In this document: piece by piece, positions 13,984-42,902 of the stretch | Numbering within the stretch: the first letter of the stretch is position 1 | Layout of the letters: every line of letters begins with the position of its first letter | Origin: Roseimicrobium sp. ORNL1 | Lineage (GTDB): Bacteria; Verrucomicrobiota; Verrucomicrobiia; Verrucomicrobiales; Verrucomicrobiaceae | Assembly (NCBI RefSeq): GCF_011044495.1 | Contig: NZ_CP049143.1 | Location: 7,316,001-7,380,000 of the forward strand | DNA length: 64,000 nucleotides | Direction: 5' to 3' | The notes under the pieces: generated by a model | The model's input: the letters and a program-made list of their open reading frames with translations, nothing else | The model's database searches: none | Told to the model about the DNA's origin: nothing | Position numbers and translations under genes: made by a program

Positions 13984-15447
13984 TCAGGGTTTCTCCGTGT
14001 AATCTCCCCCGTTCAGGCTTTTTGCCACGGACTCCAGCCAGCGCTCCAGGGCTTCCTGCATTTCAGGCACGCGCTCAGGCTGCTCCGCCAGCAGGACGCG
14101 GCTCTCATCAGGATCATTGGCGAGGTCATACAACTCCCAGCTCACATTGCCGGTCTGCGGGTCCTCCATGCGATGCAGCTTCCAGTTTCCGTCCAGCCAA
14201 GCCGCGTGACCAGGATACTTCTGCGGCGCGAAGTGCTCTTTGATCACTGCCGCGTCCGTGAAGGCCTGTGGCTCGGGCGTTGGATCGCGACCTTCTTTCT
14301 CCGCCGCCATCTGCTCTTCCATCCACTGCTTCGCCGGCGTGCCGATGCCTTTGATGGGCGAATCCCAGAAACCAATGGGCTGCGTGCGCTTCTTCTGCGC
14401 GCCCTCCAGCAGCGGGAGCAGGCTGATGCCATCCAGCGGGCGTGACTTGTCCGGCTCTATCTCGACGATATCCAGCAGCGTGGGGAAGATATCGCTGGTC
14501 ACGCATGGCTGAGTGATGACCTTCGGCTCGGGGAACTTCGCAGGCCACTCCAGCAGCGCGGGCACGGCGAGGCCGCCTTCATACACATCACCCTTGTTGC
14601 CTCGTCGGCCACCCGTGGAGCCGATTTTCGGGAGCGCGCCATTGTCGCTGCAGTACCACAGCAGGGTGTTCTTGCGCAGGCCAAGTTCCTTCAAGGTGCC
14701 GCGCAACTTTCCGAAGGCGCGATCCATCGCGGTGATCTCGCCGTAGAAGTCCTGCACATTCTTCGGTTGGTCCGCGTAAAGCGCGCGGTCGGCATCGAGG
14801 GCCTGGTGCGGATTGTGCGGCGAGCCGAACCACACCACGGCGAAGAAGCGCTGCTCCTTCTCCACGCTGTCCTTGATGAACTGGATGGCGAGATCCGCCG
14901 TGATGTCCGAGCTGTCTCCCTGGAACTGCGTGGCCTTCCCGCGATCACTCAAGATGGGATCGAGATCGAAGAAGTTCGGCGAGGACACCCACGCATCGAA
15001 CCCCTGCGCGCCGGGAGTGGTGGGCTGGTCTTTGCGCACGGAGCCGAGGTGCCACTTGCCGAAATGCCCGGTGCGATAGTCCGCGGGTTTCAACGCTTCT
15101 GCGAGGGTAGTCTCCTGCGGTCGCAACGGCCAGCCCCACTGGAAGACACCATAACGATTCGGCGTGCGCCCGGTGAGCACGCTGCCACGCGTGGGTGAGC
15201 ACACAGGAGCCGCGGCGTGGAAGTTGTCGAACCGCACGCCCTCCTTCGCCAGGGCATCGAAGTTCGGCGTCTTCAGGTGCGGATGCCCGTTGTACGCCAT
15301 GTCGCCCCAGCCCTGATCATCGGCCATCACGAGGACGATGTTCGGCAGGGCGTCCGCGGCGCGAGCGGCGGTGGAGACGGTCGCAGCAAGAACACCGGCA
15401 AAAACGGTAGCCACAGCGCAAGTCAGGCGGCGAAGGCAGATGAGCAT
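13984..15447 (-). CDS. Arylsulfatase-type sulfatase
   Basis: The 487-residue protein has a signal peptide ending in ARAA (about residue 31) and the sulfatase core. NIVLVMADDQGWGD supplies the metal-binding D43-D44. C83-S-P-T-R followed by GSVLTGR is the formylglycine signature, so it needs the formylglycine-generating enzyme, which is not in this window. H-x-x-x-G is seen in YRTGHFGKWHLG, and SDNGALPKIGSTGGRRGNKG completes the site. The product probably removes sulfate from glycans in the periplasm. It is transcribed toward the DUF1549 gene, with which it may share a degradation regulon. Confidence 0.95.
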   Translation of the reverse strand: MLICLRRLTCAVATVFAGVLAATVSTAARAADALPNIVLVMADDQGWGDMAYNGHPHLKTPNFDALAKEGVRFDNFHAAAPVCSPTRGSVLTGRTPNRYGVFQWGWPLRPQETTLAEALKPADYRTGHFGKWHLGSVRKDQPTTPGAQGFDAWVSSPNFFDLDPILSDRGKATQFQGDSSDITADLAIQFIKDSVEKEQRFFAVVWFGSPHNPHQALDADRALYADQPKNVQDFYGEITAMDRAFGKLRGTLKELGLRKNTLLWYCSDNGALPKIGSTGGRRGNKGDVYEGGLAVPALLEWPAKFPEPKVITQPCVTSDIFPTLLDIVEIEPDKSRPLDGISLLPLLEGAQKKRTQPIGFWDSPIKGIGTPAKQWMEEQMAAEKEGRDPTPEPQAFTDAAVIKEHFAPQKYPGHAAWLDGNWKLHRMEDPQTGNVSWELYDLANDPDESRVLLAEQPERVPEMQEALERWLESVAKSLNGGDYTEKP

Positions 15448-20085: not shown

Positions 20086-20347
20086 TCTGCATCGCGCCCT
20101 GAAGGGGCACAGGAATCCAGCCCAGGGTTAGGGAGCCTTGGCGACCGACACCCTGGGTGGTGTATCATGATGTATTCGACTCTGAAAGAGTCGCGGAGTC
20201 GTCGAATAGCACTTATGGTATGGCAGACCATTTCGTCGCTCTCCGCGACCCCTTCATCAGGGTCGGATGATTTTTTGATGCTGACCCAGGGTGTCGGTCG
20301 CTTAGGCTCCTTAACCCTGGGCTGGGTTCCTGCGCCCTTCAGGCTGC
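20086..20347. repeat. Long dispersed inverted repeat unit, copy A
   Basis: The unit has outer arms of about 65 bp (20086-20157 and 20284-20347, reverse complements reading CCAGCCCAGGGTTAGGGAGC and the GACACCCTGGGT end). The interior holds CGACTCTGAAAGAGTCG and CGACC-CTTCATCAGGGTCG small hairpins. Copy B at 22698-22970 has the same orientation and about the same sequence, including the GGTCGGATGATTTTTTGATG stretch. Together with the neighbouring 20428 repeat it fills the gap between the STN-like array and the GH127-like gene. Confidence 0.85.
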
Positions 20348-20427
20348 AACCTCGGGCACCTTGGGCAGGCACCCATTGGTCAGCCTATTTTACAAGCTGC
20401 AATGGGATCAGGGCTCTCCGCCCCATC

Positions 20428-22697: not shown

Positions 22698-22970
22698 CCC
22701 AGATACCTGCATCGCGCCCGGAAGGGGCGCAGGAGTCCAGCCCAGGGTTAGGGAGCTTCAAGCGACCGACACCCTGGGTGGTGTATCAGGATGTATTCGA
22801 CTCTGAAAGAGTCGCGGAGTCGTCGATTAGCCGTGATGGCATTGCAGACCATTCCCTTGCTCTCCACGACCCTTTCAGGGTCGGATGATTTTTTGATGCC
22901 GACCCAGGGTGTCAGTCGCTAAGGCTCCTTAACCCTGGGCTGGGCTCCTACAGTCCTTCAGACTGCAGCT
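22698..22970. repeat. Long dispersed inverted repeat unit, copy B
   Basis: Copy B has outer arms (reading GAAGGGGCGCAGGAGTCCAG and on) and the same interior hairpins as copy A, with scattered base changes. The copies are direct repeats bracketing the GH127-like and DUF6794-like genes. Apart from this and a weak REP near 23021-23045, the gap before the alcohol dehydrogenase holds no gene. Confidence 0.85.
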
Positions 22971-23137
22971 TCGGGGCATCTTGGAGGTTCCAATTTGTCA
23001 GCCTATTTCACAAGCATCCCAAGGATCAGGGGCACTCCTGCCCCTATTCCTATGGTCTGCCATCACCACTCTGCCTCGCCCTTCTCTCAGGATCACCACC
23101 CACCGTCCCACCGCTCACTGTCCTACCGTCGCACCGG

Positions 23138-24184
23138 CTACTTCAGCGACTTCATATCAATCACGAACCGGTACTTCACATCGCTCTTCAGCAGGCGGTC
23201 ATACGCGGTGTTGATGTAGTCCATGTTGATCATCTCAATCTCGGACGTGATGCCGTGCTGACCGCAGAAGTCGAGCATCTCCTGCGTCTCTGCGATGCCG
23301 CCAATGCCGGAACCTGACAGGCTGCGACGACCCATCAGCAGGGGGAAAGCCGCCACGGGCAGCGGATGCTCCGGAGCACCCACCAGGGTGATGTTGCCAT
23401 CCACCTTCAGCAGGTTGAGGTACTCATTGATGTCATGCTGCGCGGACACGCAGTCGAGGATGAAATCGAAGCTGCGTGCGTGGGCTTTCATCTCATCGGC
23501 GTTCTTCGAAACAACCACTTCATCCGCGCCGAGGCGTTTCGCGTCCTCCGCCTTTCCGGGAGACGTGGTGAAGAGCACCGTATGCGCGCCCAGGGCATGG
23601 GCAAACTTCACCCCCATGTGGCCCAGACCGCCCAGGCCCACGATGCCCACCTTCTGTCCCTTGCCTACCTTCCAGTGATGCAGCGGCGAGTACGTGGTGA
23701 TACCCGCGCAAAGCAGCGGCGCCACGGCCGCGAGATCCAGGTTCGCAGGCACATGCAGGACGAAGGCCTCATCCACCACGATGCTGTCCGAGTATCCGCC
23801 AAAGGTCTGGGCTCCGGAGTGCTTGTCCGGGCCATTGTAGGTGAAGACGGGGCCTACATCACAGTACTGCTCCAACCCGCGGTCGCAGCTCGGACACTTG
23901 CGGCACGAGTCCACCATGCAGCCCACCGCCGCGAGGTCGCCCTCCTTGAACTTCGTGACATGCGCGCCCACCTTCGTCACACGACCCACGATCTCATGCC
24001 CCGGCACACAAGGGTAGATGGTGTTGTGCCACTCATTCCTCACCTGGTGCAGGTCCGAGTGGCACACGCCGCAGTAGAGAATCTCAATCGCCACATCATG
24101 CGGCAGCGGATCACGACGCTCGAAGTTGAACGGGCCAAGCTTGTCAGCAGCAGCGTGAGAGGCGTAACCAAGAGTCGCTTTCAT
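23138..24184 (-). CDS. Zinc-dependent NAD(P)-linked alcohol dehydrogenase (YahK type)
   Basis: The 348-residue protein has the zinc ADH arrangement. Catalytic C41 is in GVCHSDLHQ and H63 in GHEIVGRV. The structural-zinc lobe is MVDSCRKCPSCDRGLEQYC. A Rossmann GLGGLGHMGVK sits at about 185-195, and AETQEMLDFC near the end. The subgroup (cinnamyl-alcohol-dehydrogenase-like, E. coli YahK) reduces aldehydes with NADPH in the cytosol. No signal sequence is present. It is a paralogue of the Tat-exported enzyme at 38560-39735, sharing the GITTYSPL and FTTSP blocks. Confidence 0.93.
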   Translation of the reverse strand: MKATLGYASHAAADKLGPFNFERRDPLPHDVAIEILYCGVCHSDLHQVRNEWHNTIYPCVPGHEIVGRVTKVGAHVTKFKEGDLAAVGCMVDSCRKCPSCDRGLEQYCDVGPVFTYNGPDKHSGAQTFGGYSDSIVVDEAFVLHVPANLDLAAVAPLLCAGITTYSPLHHWKVGKGQKVGIVGLGGLGHMGVKFAHALGAHTVLFTTSPGKAEDAKRLGADEVVVSKNADEMKAHARSFDFILDCVSAQHDINEYLNLLKVDGNITLVGAPEHPLPVAAFPLLMGRRSLSGSGIGGIAETQEMLDFCGQHGITSEIEMINMDYINTAYDRLLKSDVKYRFVIDMKSLK

Positions 24185-24366
24185 AAGGGGAAAAGGAAGT
24201 TGGCGGTTGTTGAGCGTGGTTTGCAGTCGTTGAGCCGTTGTTTGTGAGGGCTCCCCTGAGGAAGCGTGTAGAGTGCAATGGCCCAGACTGCTTTACGCGT
24301 CCGACCCCGAGGGCGTGCGTGACAAATGTGGGAAAGTGGGGGGCTGAGGGGCGCAGCCCCTGCAAT

Positions 24367-24529
24367 GGAGCGCGGACACTCTTGTCCGCCACCCCTGACG
24401 CTCCACCTCAACTCACCTTGCAGGCAAGGCCGCGTGCCATCAGCAGCTTTTGACCCGCGACATCGATCGATCCCCACGCCAAAGTCGGAAGCAAAGCCAT
24501 AGAACGGTGGACAAGAGTGTCCACGCTCC
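24367..24529. repeat. Left REP pair (BIME) flanking the RAYT gene
   Basis: A GGAG-headed hairpin (24367-24390, GCGGACA-CTCT-TGTCCGC) faces an inverted second hairpin (24506-24529, stem GTGGACA/TGTCCAC). The spacer contains GCAGGCAAGGCCGCGTGCCA. The whole is the reverse complement of the right flank with few differences. Apart from this unit, the gap down to the alcohol dehydrogenase (24185-24366) shows nothing recognisable. Confidence 0.9.
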
Positions 24530-24554
24530 TTTCGAACGCGAATTGACGCGTTCG

Positions 24555-25220
24555 TTAAGTCGAGTCTTCTTTGGCCTTCGCGGTCGGCTTCTCCCAATAG
24601 AGATATTCTCCTTCGCGCAAACCCGCGAGCACGGGATTCCTGCGGATGTAGTTCATAACCGCATCGAAGTGCTCACCATTTCGAATGAGTCGATCAAAGT
24701 AATCAGGCTGCCAGAAGGGTTCTAACTCGGAGAGACCCGCCTTGTGGATCATGCCCGAGGACACACCCTTCCATCCTTGCAGAATGTCAGGCAACAATTG
24801 CCCCACTCGCATGGACACAAGGACGTGCACATGATTGGGCATCACCACGAAGTTAATCAGATCATACCTTACCTCGTTAAAGTGCAGAAGACGCCCTGCT
24901 ACCACCTGAGCAACACGTCCGTCACGCATGGCACAGCAACCATGCCCCGAGTCCAGCCATCTTTCGAACGGCTTGGTGAAGCGTTCGTGGTACTCCCTTT
25001 CCACGCTTTCTTCCCAAGGCTGGGGATGGCTTGCTTTGAAGGCTCCGCTCTCGCGTCGCCACTCGTTCAGCACCTCTGCAGGAATCGAGTCTGAAAGCCG
25101 ATAATTGACCATCACAGGACAAGCTCCCTGCTGCCAGTGCGGAAGCTTGTGGCGAGTAGCGGAAACGTCCAGTCGCGGATTGAAGTACGGAACCTCCATC
25201 ACTTCACTATTACAGCGCAT
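24555..25220 (-). CDS. REP-associated tyrosine transposase (RAYT, Y1-type)
   Basis: The 221-residue protein has the Y1 HUH-nuclease order: a strand RYDLINFVVMPNHVHVLVSM with the H-x-H metal ligands (N-H-V-H), then LPDILQGWKG helix, SELEPFWQPDYFDRLIRNGEHFDAVMNYIRRNPV containing the candidate catalytic Tyr (D-Y-F-D-R or N-Y-I). The YIRRNPVLAGL end is characteristic of the RAYT subgroup. RAYTs are single-copy transposases that recognise a tetranucleotide plus hairpin (REP). It lies exactly between two mirror-image REP pairs. An unusually long N-terminus (about 110 residues of Trp/Glu/Arg-rich sequence) precedes the HUH part. Confidence 0.9.
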   Translation of the reverse strand: MRCNSEVMEVPYFNPRLDVSATRHKLPHWQQGACPVMVNYRLSDSIPAEVLNEWRRESGAFKASHPQPWEESVEREYHERFTKPFERWLDSGHGCCAMRDGRVAQVVAGRLLHFNEVRYDLINFVVMPNHVHVLVSMRVGQLLPDILQGWKGVSSGMIHKAGLSELEPFWQPDYFDRLIRNGEHFDAVMNYIRRNPVLAGLREGEYLYWEKPTAKAKEDST

Positions 25221-25249
25221 GGAAAAACAATCAAGGTGGGTTCGTCAAA

Positions 25250-25412
25250 GGGGCGTGGACACTCTTATCCGCCGTTCTGTGGCATTGCTTCAGTCTTTGG
25301 TGTGGAGTAGTTCAATGTCGCGGGTCAAAAGCTGCTGATGGCACGCGGCCTTGCCTGCATGACGGCACGAGATAGTACATCAGGGGTGGCGGACAAGAGT
25401 GTCCGCGCTCCT
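25250..25412. repeat. Right REP pair (BIME) flanking the RAYT gene
   Basis: A GGGG-headed hairpin (25250-25273, stem GTGGACA/TATCCGC, slightly degenerate) and a GGAG-headed inverted hairpin (25386-25412) enclose a spacer with the same GATGGCACGCGGCCTTGCCTGC as the left flank in reverse. Length and internal order mirror the left flank, making about 165-bp inverted ends around the RAYT gene. Confidence 0.9.
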
Positions 25413-25442
25413 TTGTAGGGAGGCTGCGCCCCCGGCTCCCCC

Positions 25443-26981
25443 TCACTCCGCCGCCTTCCCACGGAATCTCTCCGCCACACGCTCCACGCCACCACGTGGG
25501 CCGGCCACTTCCACGAATCCCTTCCCTCCCGTAGCCGCATCCACCGCCGCTTTCGCCGGATAGGGATACAGCGGGATCTCAATCGCCGTCCGCCCGTCCA
25601 CGATGCGCTGCGCCTGAATCTTCCCGGGCGCTGCATTCTTCTCACGCCAGTCCATCACGAGCTTCAGCATGCTCGGCAGTTTGTTGATGCCTGGGCCCGG
25701 ACCGTGCGCCATGCCAGGAACGAAGTAGAGCCGCGCGAACGACTGCGCCTTCTCTACCGAGCCGAAGTGCTCCACCACACGCTCGTAATAATCCAGCGTG
25801 GCATGATACGGCACCACGGAGTCCGCCGAGCCGGTGATCATGAGAATCTTCCCGCCACGTGCTTCAAACGCACTGAGATCCGCATTCTCCGCGTTCAGAT
25901 AAGGAGCGAGCTCTGCGGTGTAGGTATCGATGTCCTTGCCGAAATCAATCGTCGTGAGGTCCTTCTCCTTCCCGAAGACCCACTGGAAAAGATACAGGTG
26001 CCCATGCGCACTCTTGAAGTCCGCACCGAAGGGGATGCCGCAGAAGATGCGCTCGCCCGTCACTGCATGCTTCGGTCCGCTGAAGAGCTTCCGCATCGCA
26101 TCCGCGTGCTGGTCGGTGAGTGTCGCATCCTTCGTGCGGGCCAGTGCGATCACGGCCTCAATATCCTGCGCGGTGCAACGCGGGTCAGACACCATCTTCC
26201 CTGCCGTCTGCGGCAGTTCGCGTGAGGCCATGTATTCATTTCCTGCGGCGATGACGGCCTTCTCCTGCTTCTCCGTGAAGGGACAGGCGCGCAGTATCTG
26301 GTCATTCCACAGGAAGTAGGCATGCAGCGGCGTGCGGCAGTGCGCGGGCACATTTGCCACGATGCCGTCATAATCCTCCGGATACCGCTGCGCCTCCTGC
26401 AGCGCCTGCTGACCACCGGTGGAGCCGCCGTTGAAGTACGAATACTCCGGCGCCTTTCCGTAGTAGGCCTTGATGAGATCCTTCGCCGCCACCGTCATGA
26501 GATGCGTGGCGCGATAGCCAAAGTCCTTCCACACTTCGCGATTCCCAATGCCCGAGTCCGAGTTCGGCGCGGTGCCCATGTCCGTGGTGGCCACGGCGAA
26601 TCCCTGACTCAGCGGTCCCGCCAGGCTGTCTGGATTGATTTTCCCCGCCGAACCGCCATTGCCCAGACCGATGAAGCGCCCATTCCACTTGTCCCCATCC
26701 GGCAGCCAGGCTTCCACCTTGATGTTCGACCCCTTCGCCGGTTGCAGCAGCAGATTCACCACGATGCGCGCCGGCTGCTCACCCGCCGCGATGTGCCCCA
26801 CGAACACAATCTTCCCGGACTCAATTTGCAGCGACCGGAGCCTCGCCGCCCCCTCCTCCGCCGGTGACACCGCCTGTGCTTTCGGTGGGGCCTTCGTCCC
26901 CTCCTTCGCCAGAATTGGCATGGCCACAGTTCCGCACAACAACACAGAGAAGGACGTCAGGAGCAGGGAATGAGGTTTCAC
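25443..26981 (-). CDS. Tannase/feruloyl-esterase-family hydrolase
   Basis: The 512-residue exported protein (signal peptide ending near ILAKE) belongs to the tannase/feruloyl esterase group. The oxyanion-side GLGNGGSAGKI, then DMGTAPNSDSG and the nucleophile elbow GGSTGGQQAL (S187) are present. So are the two conserved Cys regions (CPFTEK, DPRCTAQD) of the lid domain, and the acid and base regions GSADSVVPYHATLDYY and PGMAHGPGPG. It hydrolyses phenolic esters such as feruloyl or galloyl groups in plant matter. It is divergent from the rhamnogalacturonan-acetylesterase-like gene, an agreement in plant-polymer use. Confidence 0.92.
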   Translation of the reverse strand: MKPHSLLLTSFSVLLCGTVAMPILAKEGTKAPPKAQAVSPAEEGAARLRSLQIESGKIVFVGHIAAGEQPARIVVNLLLQPAKGSNIKVEAWLPDGDKWNGRFIGLGNGGSAGKINPDSLAGPLSQGFAVATTDMGTAPNSDSGIGNREVWKDFGYRATHLMTVAAKDLIKAYYGKAPEYSYFNGGSTGGQQALQEAQRYPEDYDGIVANVPAHCRTPLHAYFLWNDQILRACPFTEKQEKAVIAAGNEYMASRELPQTAGKMVSDPRCTAQDIEAVIALARTKDATLTDQHADAMRKLFSGPKHAVTGERIFCGIPFGADFKSAHGHLYLFQWVFGKEKDLTTIDFGKDIDTYTAELAPYLNAENADLSAFEARGGKILMITGSADSVVPYHATLDYYERVVEHFGSVEKAQSFARLYFVPGMAHGPGPGINKLPSMLKLVMDWREKNAAPGKIQAQRIVDGRTAIEIPLYPYPAKAAVDAATGGKGFVEVAGPRGGVERVAERFRGKAAE

Positions 26982-33580: not shown

Positions 33581-33694
33581 AGGAGCGTGGACACTCTTGT
33601 CCGCCGTTCCGCCGTCCGGCTTGTTCCTTTGTCCTGGAGAAAGACAGCTCCGCGCATCAGAAGCTGCTGATGGCACACGGCCTTGCCCGCCGCG
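33581..33694. repeat. Orphan REP unit related to the RAYT flanks
   Basis: A GGAG-headed hairpin (GTGGACA-CTCT-TGTCCGC, 33581-33604) is followed by about 50 bp and then GCTGCTGATGGCACACGGCCTTGCC, the same spacer block as in the RAYT flanks. No second hairpin and no transposase are present, so it is a truncated orphan of that unit. Confidence 0.85.
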
Positions 33695-35586: not shown

Positions 35587-36045
35587 TCATTCCACCCGAT
35601 GCAGCCGCCCCTCCGGAAGGTACCTGCACAACTCCTGCTCCAGCTTCTCCGGCAGCCACAGTTCCATCGAATCCTCCGTGCCCCCGCCCTCCACCACCAC
35701 CTGGAAGTAGCGCCTGCGGGAAGAAACCTTCACTTCCTCCACCCGTCGCACACGCTCCCAAGGCAGCAGAAACGGCGGATGAAAGGGGCGGTAAAGGAAC
35801 CGCATGTGCAGGTACAGGCCTTCCTCGGCGAACACCACCCGAACGACGTTCTTGTACGACGCCATCGTATCGCCAAACCGCGCCGCCGGCGCCTTGTAGG
35901 ACTTCCCCGGTGGACGATGGGCGACCGGATACGCACGGGCAAAGGCCTTCCACCGGGGAGAAACGAGAAACCAAACGACCAGCCAGCCGCTCACAGCAGT
36001 CATGGGGAAACAAAGGTCCCAAGGCAGGTCATCGGTTGCGGGCAT
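35587..36045 (-). CDS. Tandem PH-like membrane protein, paralogue 1 (first of array)
   Basis: From the ATG chosen it is 152 residues: anchor LCFPMTAVSGWLVVWFLVSPRWKAFARAYP, then the PH-like part YKNVVRVVFAEEGLYLHMRFLYRPFHPPFLLPWERVRRVEEVK, RYFQVVVEGGGTEDSMELWLPEKLEQELCRYLPE and a final RLHRVE close to paralogue 2's RLQRVG. The 45-codon upstream extension is Thr/Glu-rich and not shared, so I excluded it. It is the first gene of the array in transcription order. It is separated from paralogue 2 by 2.2 kb of repeats and the IS630 element, which probably uncouples it from the other copies. Confidence 0.75.
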   Translation of the reverse strand: MPATDDLPWDLCFPMTAVSGWLVVWFLVSPRWKAFARAYPVAHRPPGKSYKAPAARFGDTMASYKNVVRVVFAEEGLYLHMRFLYRPFHPPFLLPWERVRRVEEVKVSSRRRYFQVVVEGGGTEDSMELWLPEKLEQELCRYLPEGRLHRVE

Positions 36046-42729: not shown

Positions 42730-42902
42730 GGAGCGCGGACACTCCTGTCCGCCACGACTGATGCACCAGCTCCCGGCCTTCCAATGGAGCGGCCAGGCAA
42801 GTCCACGGCTGTATCTCCGCGACATGGAAGGCGGCCTCTTCCCTCCGGCACGAGACCAGCAAATCACGCCGCAGACCAGCGGACAAGAGTGTCCGCGCTC
42901 CT
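42730..42902. repeat. BIME inside the RND operon (orphan REP pair)
   Basis: A GGAG-headed GCGGACA-CTCC-TGTCCGC hairpin (42730-42753) and its inverted mate (42879-42902, AGCGGACAAGAGTGTCCGCGC) enclose about 125 bp. The spacing equals that of the RAYT flanks and the spacer retains fragments resembling theirs (GGCAAGTCCACGGC), with no transposase between them. It lies between adaptor and pump. Confidence 0.85.

Follow-up and report, generated by a model that had tools for sequence, protein, structure and literature searches.

A transposase gene enclosed by two mirror-image copies of a repeat raises the question of whether gene and repeats move together, as a transposon recognised by its paired ends, or whether the gene stays in place and serves repeats dispersed elsewhere. 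Such an arrangement surrounds a gene for a REP-associated tyrosine transposase (RAYT) in the window, the stretch of 64,000 nucleotides of the Roseimicrobium sp. ORNL1 genome analysed here.

The RAYT gene and its mirror-image flanks

The gene, its flanks and the further repeats of the same family in the window are the following.

24338..24537, unstranded: left arm of the mirror-image flanks, 83% alike to the right arm over 204 columns
24367..24529, plus strand: left REPIN, a REP, an asymmetric interior and an inverted REP, belonging with the dispersed copies to one family
24367..24389, plus strand: left outer REP, GGAG head, intact hairpin, 0 motif mismatches
24507..24529, minus strand: left inner REP, GGAG head, intact hairpin, 1 motif mismatch
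24555..25220, minus strand: RAYT gene, 221 aa, HUH residues H130/H132, catalytic Y191
25240..25441, unstranded: right arm of the mirror-image flanks, ending beside the 3' end of the tannase-family gene
25250..25411, minus strand: right REPIN, whose interior mirrors that of the left REPIN
25250..25272, plus strand: right inner REP, decayed, GGGG head, broken stem, 2 motif mismatches
25389..25411, minus strand: right outer REP, GGAG head, intact hairpin, 0 motif mismatches
33582..33604, plus strand: isolated REP of this family, in what looks like a remnant of the composite with terminal inverted repeats (TIRs)
42730..42752, plus strand: single REP of the same family, within a short open reading frame
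42879..42901, minus strand: another single REP of this family, sharing the reading frame of the REP at 42730..42752

The RAYT gene lies between genes for an alcohol dehydrogenase (23138-24184, minus strand) and a tannase-family protein (25443-26981, minus strand), and both its reading frame and its catalytic residues are intact. Its 221-residue product contains a Y1/IS200-like transposase domain (Pfam Y1_Tnp PF01797, E 4.5e-10, 40.1 bits against a cut-off of 23); it also matches the NCBIfam model REP_Tyr_transpos (NF047646) at E 1.5e-16, with a score of 60.6 bits that falls below the curated cut-off of 80, so that the protein is not assigned to this equivalog. The REP-bound RAYT TnpA_REP (4er8) is the top PDB match by sequence and also by fold, the latter assessed on a predicted structure (pLDDT 86.4, pTM 0.79; Foldseek E 3.3e-6; VIA Z 13.6, rmsd 3.1, 137 aligned residues). 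Specifically, H130, H132, Y191 and N195 are invariant across 29 aligned sequences and P196 nearly so, which gives an HUH pair and a catalytic tyrosine in a Y---NP motif, the class 2 signature according to the accessible text of PMC6006769. The motifs NHVH, WQ and YIRRNP resemble those that the table of Quentin et al. gives for subclasses 2.4 and 2.7. By family, motifs and predicted fold, 24555-25220 is thus identified as a RAYT gene. The preliminary description had reached the same identification, with correct coordinates for the gene and the flanking repeats, and the HUH and tyrosine residues on which it hinged are retained in the alignment.

The two flanks join in one gapped BLAST alignment (24338-24537 with 25240-25441, 204 columns, 83%), and the inverted arms run from 24335-24466 to 25312-25443 (132 nt, 80%) and from 24474-24532 to 25247-25305 (59 nt, 86%). 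The likeness runs past the outer REPs (24331-24358 against 25422-25449, 28 nt, 71%). The left flank had been described as the reverse complement of the right: the mirror arrangement holds, and the interior GCAAGGCCGCGTGCCATCAG block is found in both flanks, but the two are alike at 83% and not identical. Similarly, of the four GGAG hairpins first reported three are intact, while the right inner REP (25250-25272) has a GGGG head, a broken stem and a DNA fold z-score of -0.47, compared with -4.07, -2.29 and -3.26 for the other three. The gene is flanked by REPs in inverted orientation, one of the four being decayed. The window has seven matches to the REP motif, whereas 100 shuffles average 0.00.

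This organisation recalls several known systems, here compared through the accessible parts of the papers cited. As in REPtrons (Nunvar 2010, PMC2817692; TnpA_REP, PMC8266576), a single-copy HUH/Tyr gene lies between inverted REPs that occur in large numbers in the genome; the differences are a GGAG foot instead of GTAG or GTGG, and three predicted helices ahead of the HUH strands, with the HUH at residues 130-132 of 221. With TIRtrons/TIRYTs (Di Nocera 2013, PMC3733652) the locus shares a tyrosine transposase placed between long inverted repeats, of which some recur in the genome; however, most TIRs described there are unrelated to REPs, whereas the inverted repeats of the window contain REP pairs. 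Two Pseudomonas cases in the same paper do join degenerate REPs to other stem-loops. Finally, the Y1 transposase fold and the catalytic residues are those of IS200/IS605 insertion sequences, but there is no multi-copy autonomous element here.

Arrangement and location of RAYT loci

A genome-wide search for the flank repeats, as proposed in the preliminary description, returned 106 REPs of the window family (7.96 Mb, one contig; at most 3 mismatches) and none in a reversed control. With 5 mismatches allowed, 104 REPs at the loci examined resolve into 50 head-to-head pairs and 4 singles, and in 28 of the 50 pairs the two REPs lie exactly 136 bases apart, start to start. The family thus consists of dispersed and mostly paired inverted REPs with a spacer, that is, of REPINs. 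In the accessible text of Bertels and Rainey 2011 (PMC3116915), the dispersed unit is likewise two inverted REPs plus a spacer, and REPIN clusters lie beside RAYTs; unlike there, 33 of the 50 pairs are nested in a TIR element. In contrast to its abundant cognate REPs, the RAYT gene is single copy: the genome gives 12 RAYT-like matches including its own (weakest E 0.008), and the best paralogue is 47% identical. The two RAYT flanks are mutual closest relatives among the 50 pairs (84%, against at most 77% otherwise), and two quick trees support their grouping at 94 and 98.

One of the 50 pairs (42730-42901) consists of the two single REPs inside the short reading frame, where they are read in frame as the peptides ERGHSCPP and GQECPRS. 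The corresponding frame (about 67950-68200 of contig C9) in G001, the sole other genome of the genus searched, contains no REP within 5 mismatches (the window's own genome is G000). Among the 15 gaps of at least 18 nt listed in aligned G000/G001 blocks, none is a whole REP or REPIN with a GGAG foot; one gap of 19 nt, at 35769, carries a REP-like stem sequence. A different palindromic repeat of about 260 bp has two copies in the window (20092-20359 and 22713-22974) and many matches in G001.

Inverted flank repeats were found at 31 of 39 RAYT loci (8 without) and direct ones also at 31 of 39, the direct match of L070 being an overlap artefact; neither kind was found at any of 23 control loci, namely those of the two neighbouring genes in relatives. 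When the better-matching orientation is scored per locus, leaving out L070 at its contig end, 15 of 38 loci are mirror, 19 direct, 2 tied and 2 have none. A second set, drawn from named genomes and overlapping the first by at least six loci (L188, L189, L190, L198, L200, L211), gave shared flank repeats at 57 of the 67 loci examined out of 80 (20 mirror, 32 direct, 5 tied), compared with 2 of 61 controls. Hence RAYT loci in both sets are as a rule bracketed by repeats common to the two sides, whereas no such rule holds for mirror orientation.

The window RAYT is sister (support 100/99) to ten RAYTs from other genomes of the family, which keep common neighbours across genera. Eight of the ten lie on the contig that carries carB. 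A RAYT occurs at most 1500 nt after carB in 5 of the 25 carB loci examined (G003, G004 on the opposite strand, G008, G014 and G015); in G016, G030 and G011 a sister RAYT lies on the same contig as carB, and the sister RAYTs of G029 and G009 have a far-side gene in common with the carB-linked one of G030. This comparison covers 25 of the 30 carB loci; G019 at least is cut at a contig end and thus uninformative, and a search of G009 at E 1e-100 gave no match to carB. In the window's own genome and in G001, the 1500 nt that follow carB contain neither a RAYT nor a window REP. Hence the lineage mostly keeps one neighbourhood, although some genomes lack it there, and the window copy has a different location; it follows that the unit or its gene moved or was transferred at least once. 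At one further locus (L159, in G020), carB is followed by a REPIN of the family alone, where relatives have REPs and a RAYT; this may mark a loss of the gene.

The window RAYT is absent from G001, whose best RAYT is 47% identical. Both outer neighbourhoods of the locus are kept there, but they enclose 42.7 kb, against 6.1 kb in G000, and the DNA between them mostly differs, the exception being an alcohol-dehydrogenase-like gene (75%) in opposite orientation. Because of this difference in intervening DNA, the search for an empty site of the unit, which the earlier account had called for, yielded no clean one in G001. Plasmids and phages gave no match at E 1e-10, and the genome holds one copy of the unit, not the several near-identical whole copies of an IS200/IS605 element. 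The window copy lies at a different locus from its sisters and G001 lacks it, so the whole unit may once, as a rare event, have been relocated or transferred.

A candidate for a moved unit, the RAYT pair L032/L077 (87.6% DNA identity over 978 columns, with differing flanks), was withdrawn after wider comparison: synteny is kept on one side and a rearrangement breakpoint lies on the other. This RAYT is orthologous between G000 and G001 and lies at an apparent 130-kb inversion; its outer-side homology stops at the REP foot and resumes 130 kb away, just past another RAYT (L036). The comparison covers the two ends of this putative inversion, on either side of the stretch from 55 to 140 kb, and its breakpoints (G000:C1:30092 and about 153900-160782) fall at or near two different RAYT loci.

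GGAG-headed REPs and the RAYT clade

The window-type REP, with 4 mismatches allowed, flanks 10 of 14 RAYT loci whose product is at least 46% identical to that of the window and none of the 25 below; the four close relatives without it are L032, L077, L075 and L089. In the second set of loci, window-type REPs also adjoin three more distant RAYTs, namely L203 (39%, one side only), L206 (42%) and L226 (41%). Their median number per genome is 14 in the 11 genomes whose best RAYT falls in the window clade (own genome included) and 6 in 25 genomes of the same family (p 0.002, or 0.004 without the own genome, relatedness being ignored); REP-rich genomes without a RAYT of the clade are G010 (35), G023 (20) and G033 (19). 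RAYT clade and REP sequence thus match, if loosely, and a strict rule of one REP for one RAYT clade is contradicted by L203, L206 and L226.

The foot of the REPs is GGAG, which sets them apart from the GTAG-tagged superfamily with its GTAG or GTGG foot. In a survey of 99 loci, 55 had a recurrent hairpin shared between the flanks (foot allowed 0-2 nt from the stem, several feet per locus possible): a GGAG foot was present at 24 of them, whereas a tetranucleotide occurs at 2.1 loci on average, and GTAG or GTGG without GGAG was present at 11. On the RAYT tree, GGAG loci make up 22 of the 30 inside one branch (SH 98) and 2 of the 25 outside it, a distribution that takes 9 changes; shuffles take 18.1, and none of 500 is as low. 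GGAG-headed REPs thus mark one RAYT clade. The finding looks new: the literature searched (titles and the beginnings of abstracts, with few subscription papers) contains no report of such a clade. GGAG is not claimed as a wholly new head, since the P. putida REP TGTGGGAGCGGGC... has GGAG beside its stem in the accessible table of PMC2817692. Inside this Verrucomicrobiota-dominated clade lies L192, a gammaproteobacterial RAYT (Lamprocystis purpurea) that is 49% identical and has GGAG-headed REPs; its position points to a possible horizontal transfer.

The outer element and the reading of the locus

An outer sequence, shared between loci, encloses 33 of the 50 REP pairs on at least one side. It belongs to an element of roughly 300 bp with terminal inverted repeats (TACCGAGAAGAGTTGAAAAC...GGTA, also written TACC...GAGTTGAAAAC) and 3-bp TNA target duplications; genome positions 6837401-6837699 and the loci L268-L285 are examples. 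Within 3 mismatches, the ends match 13 times in G000 and 5 times in G001. TNA duplications accompany 14 of 17 two-ended elements (10 by script and 4 by eye; 3 without), and the script found an identical TNA in 12 of the 19 rows into which these 17 elements fall, against a shuffled mean of 3.1 and a highest value of 9 in 2000 shuffles. Four further end matches (L270, L276, L277, L285) gave no end pair. Terminal inverted repeats with a TNA duplication are the features of IS5-like MITEs, and on the TNA duplication we presume the element to be of IS5 type; it differs from a MITE of that type in carrying one or more REPINs.

The same outer ends enclose other REP families. Specifically, a GGAG-CGGGAACG family is enclosed in both G000 and G001, and GGAG-TGGGGACA is enclosed while itself enclosing GGAG-CGGCACTAG. 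Compared by eye, CGGCACTAG is the REP of RAYT L032, and TGGGGACA differs from that of L033 by a single base pair. Four elements (L271, L277, L283, L285) show such nesting between REPs of two families, with the outer pair complete in three. Three copies, which group together on the REPIN tree, have their REPIN in the opposite orientation within the outer element. The 33 copies with outer sequence all sit in a single part of the REPIN tree, along with 6 of the 17 copies without it. A poorly resolved REPIN tree, with no starred branch among 47, needs 7 changes for the outer-sequence state, against 14.3 in shuffles (0 of 500 as low). The 41 matches in G000, where 40 of 54 candidates were scored, and the single match in G001 included no full-length outer element free of REPINs. 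A weak junction-spanning match at window 15027-15074 (E 0.006, 79%), within a reading frame that by eye looks sulfatase-like (13984-15447), was taken as chance. Apparently, then, the outer element is a DDE-type MITE with REPINs as cargo. This too looks new, as no report of REPINs as MITE cargo was met in the literature searched, again titles and abstract beginnings with few subscription papers.

How the locus came about can be read in several ways. That the four REPs and the gene form one IS-like mobile unit, transposing with its paired ends, was the proposal of the preliminary description, and it could draw on the mirror-image arms of about 200 bp that extend beyond the outer REPs, on the absence of the unit from G001 and on its position elsewhere than in the sister genera. 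We now regard it as very unlikely. A single copy in 7.96 Mb, sister RAYTs that share the carB contig (8 of 10) or a far-side gene with a carB-linked copy, orientations divided between mirror and direct over the 38 loci, a decayed fourth REP and the lack of plasmid or phage matches at E 1e-10 all weigh against a unit recognised by its ends, and in the sole candidate for a moved unit, L032/L077, one side is orthologous while the other holds a rearrangement breakpoint. We give an even chance to a history of two separate REPIN insertions followed by gene conversion, in which paired ends play no role: the flanks are each other's closest relatives, and direct and mirror arrangements are both common (19 and 15 of 38; 32 and 20 of 67), although the 28 nt of likeness beyond the outer REPs exceed what REPIN insertion explains.

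A further reading, on which we are rather tentative, has the REP family dispersed mostly by hitchhiking in the DDE-moved TIR element, with the RAYT perhaps a relic. It agrees with the 33 enclosed pairs, with the TNA duplications in 14 of 17 two-ended elements and with the clustering of outer-sequence copies on the poorly resolved tree; on the other hand, 17 pairs have no recognised outer element, 6 of them among the composite copies on the tree, the RAYT frame and catalytic residues are intact, and the search by end sequence identified no autonomous transposase with the outer ends.

In our judgement the locus is quite probably an ordinary REPtron, that is, a single-copy, non-self-mobile RAYT that has a REPIN of its cognate GGAG-headed family on either side and acts in trans on REPINs. 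By analogy with the biochemistry of E. coli TnpA_REP, such a RAYT would bind REP hairpins in single-stranded DNA, would read the GGAG foot as a guide and would cleave and rejoin REP or REPIN units in trans. The flanking REPIN pair would be kept as its cognate substrate, and the mirror symmetry would represent one of two common arrangements, probably homogenised by gene conversion between the flanks, and not transposon ends.

The mechanisms of REP dissemination are called poorly understood in the accessible text of PMC8266576. With the balance about equal for and against, we propose that REPINs can leave their RAYT. In this genus, several families of GGAG-headed REPINs, whose sequences match the REPs of at least two and probably three different RAYTs, would be carried, one at a time or one inside another, by a TIR/TNA MITE that a DDE transposase moves; a REP family would then expand by double-strand cut-and-paste and not through its cognate single-strand enzyme, the mirror-flanked RAYT being a fixed source of cargo. 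In a genome with 12 RAYT-like matches, several REP families and REPINs nested in an apparently conventional MITE, the two routes of spread may be separable by sequence, and the GGAG-headed clade would be a natural set in which to compare guide recognition with that of GTAG enzymes. In conclusion, REPINs as the cargo of a MITE are a more interesting lead than the mirror symmetry of the locus.
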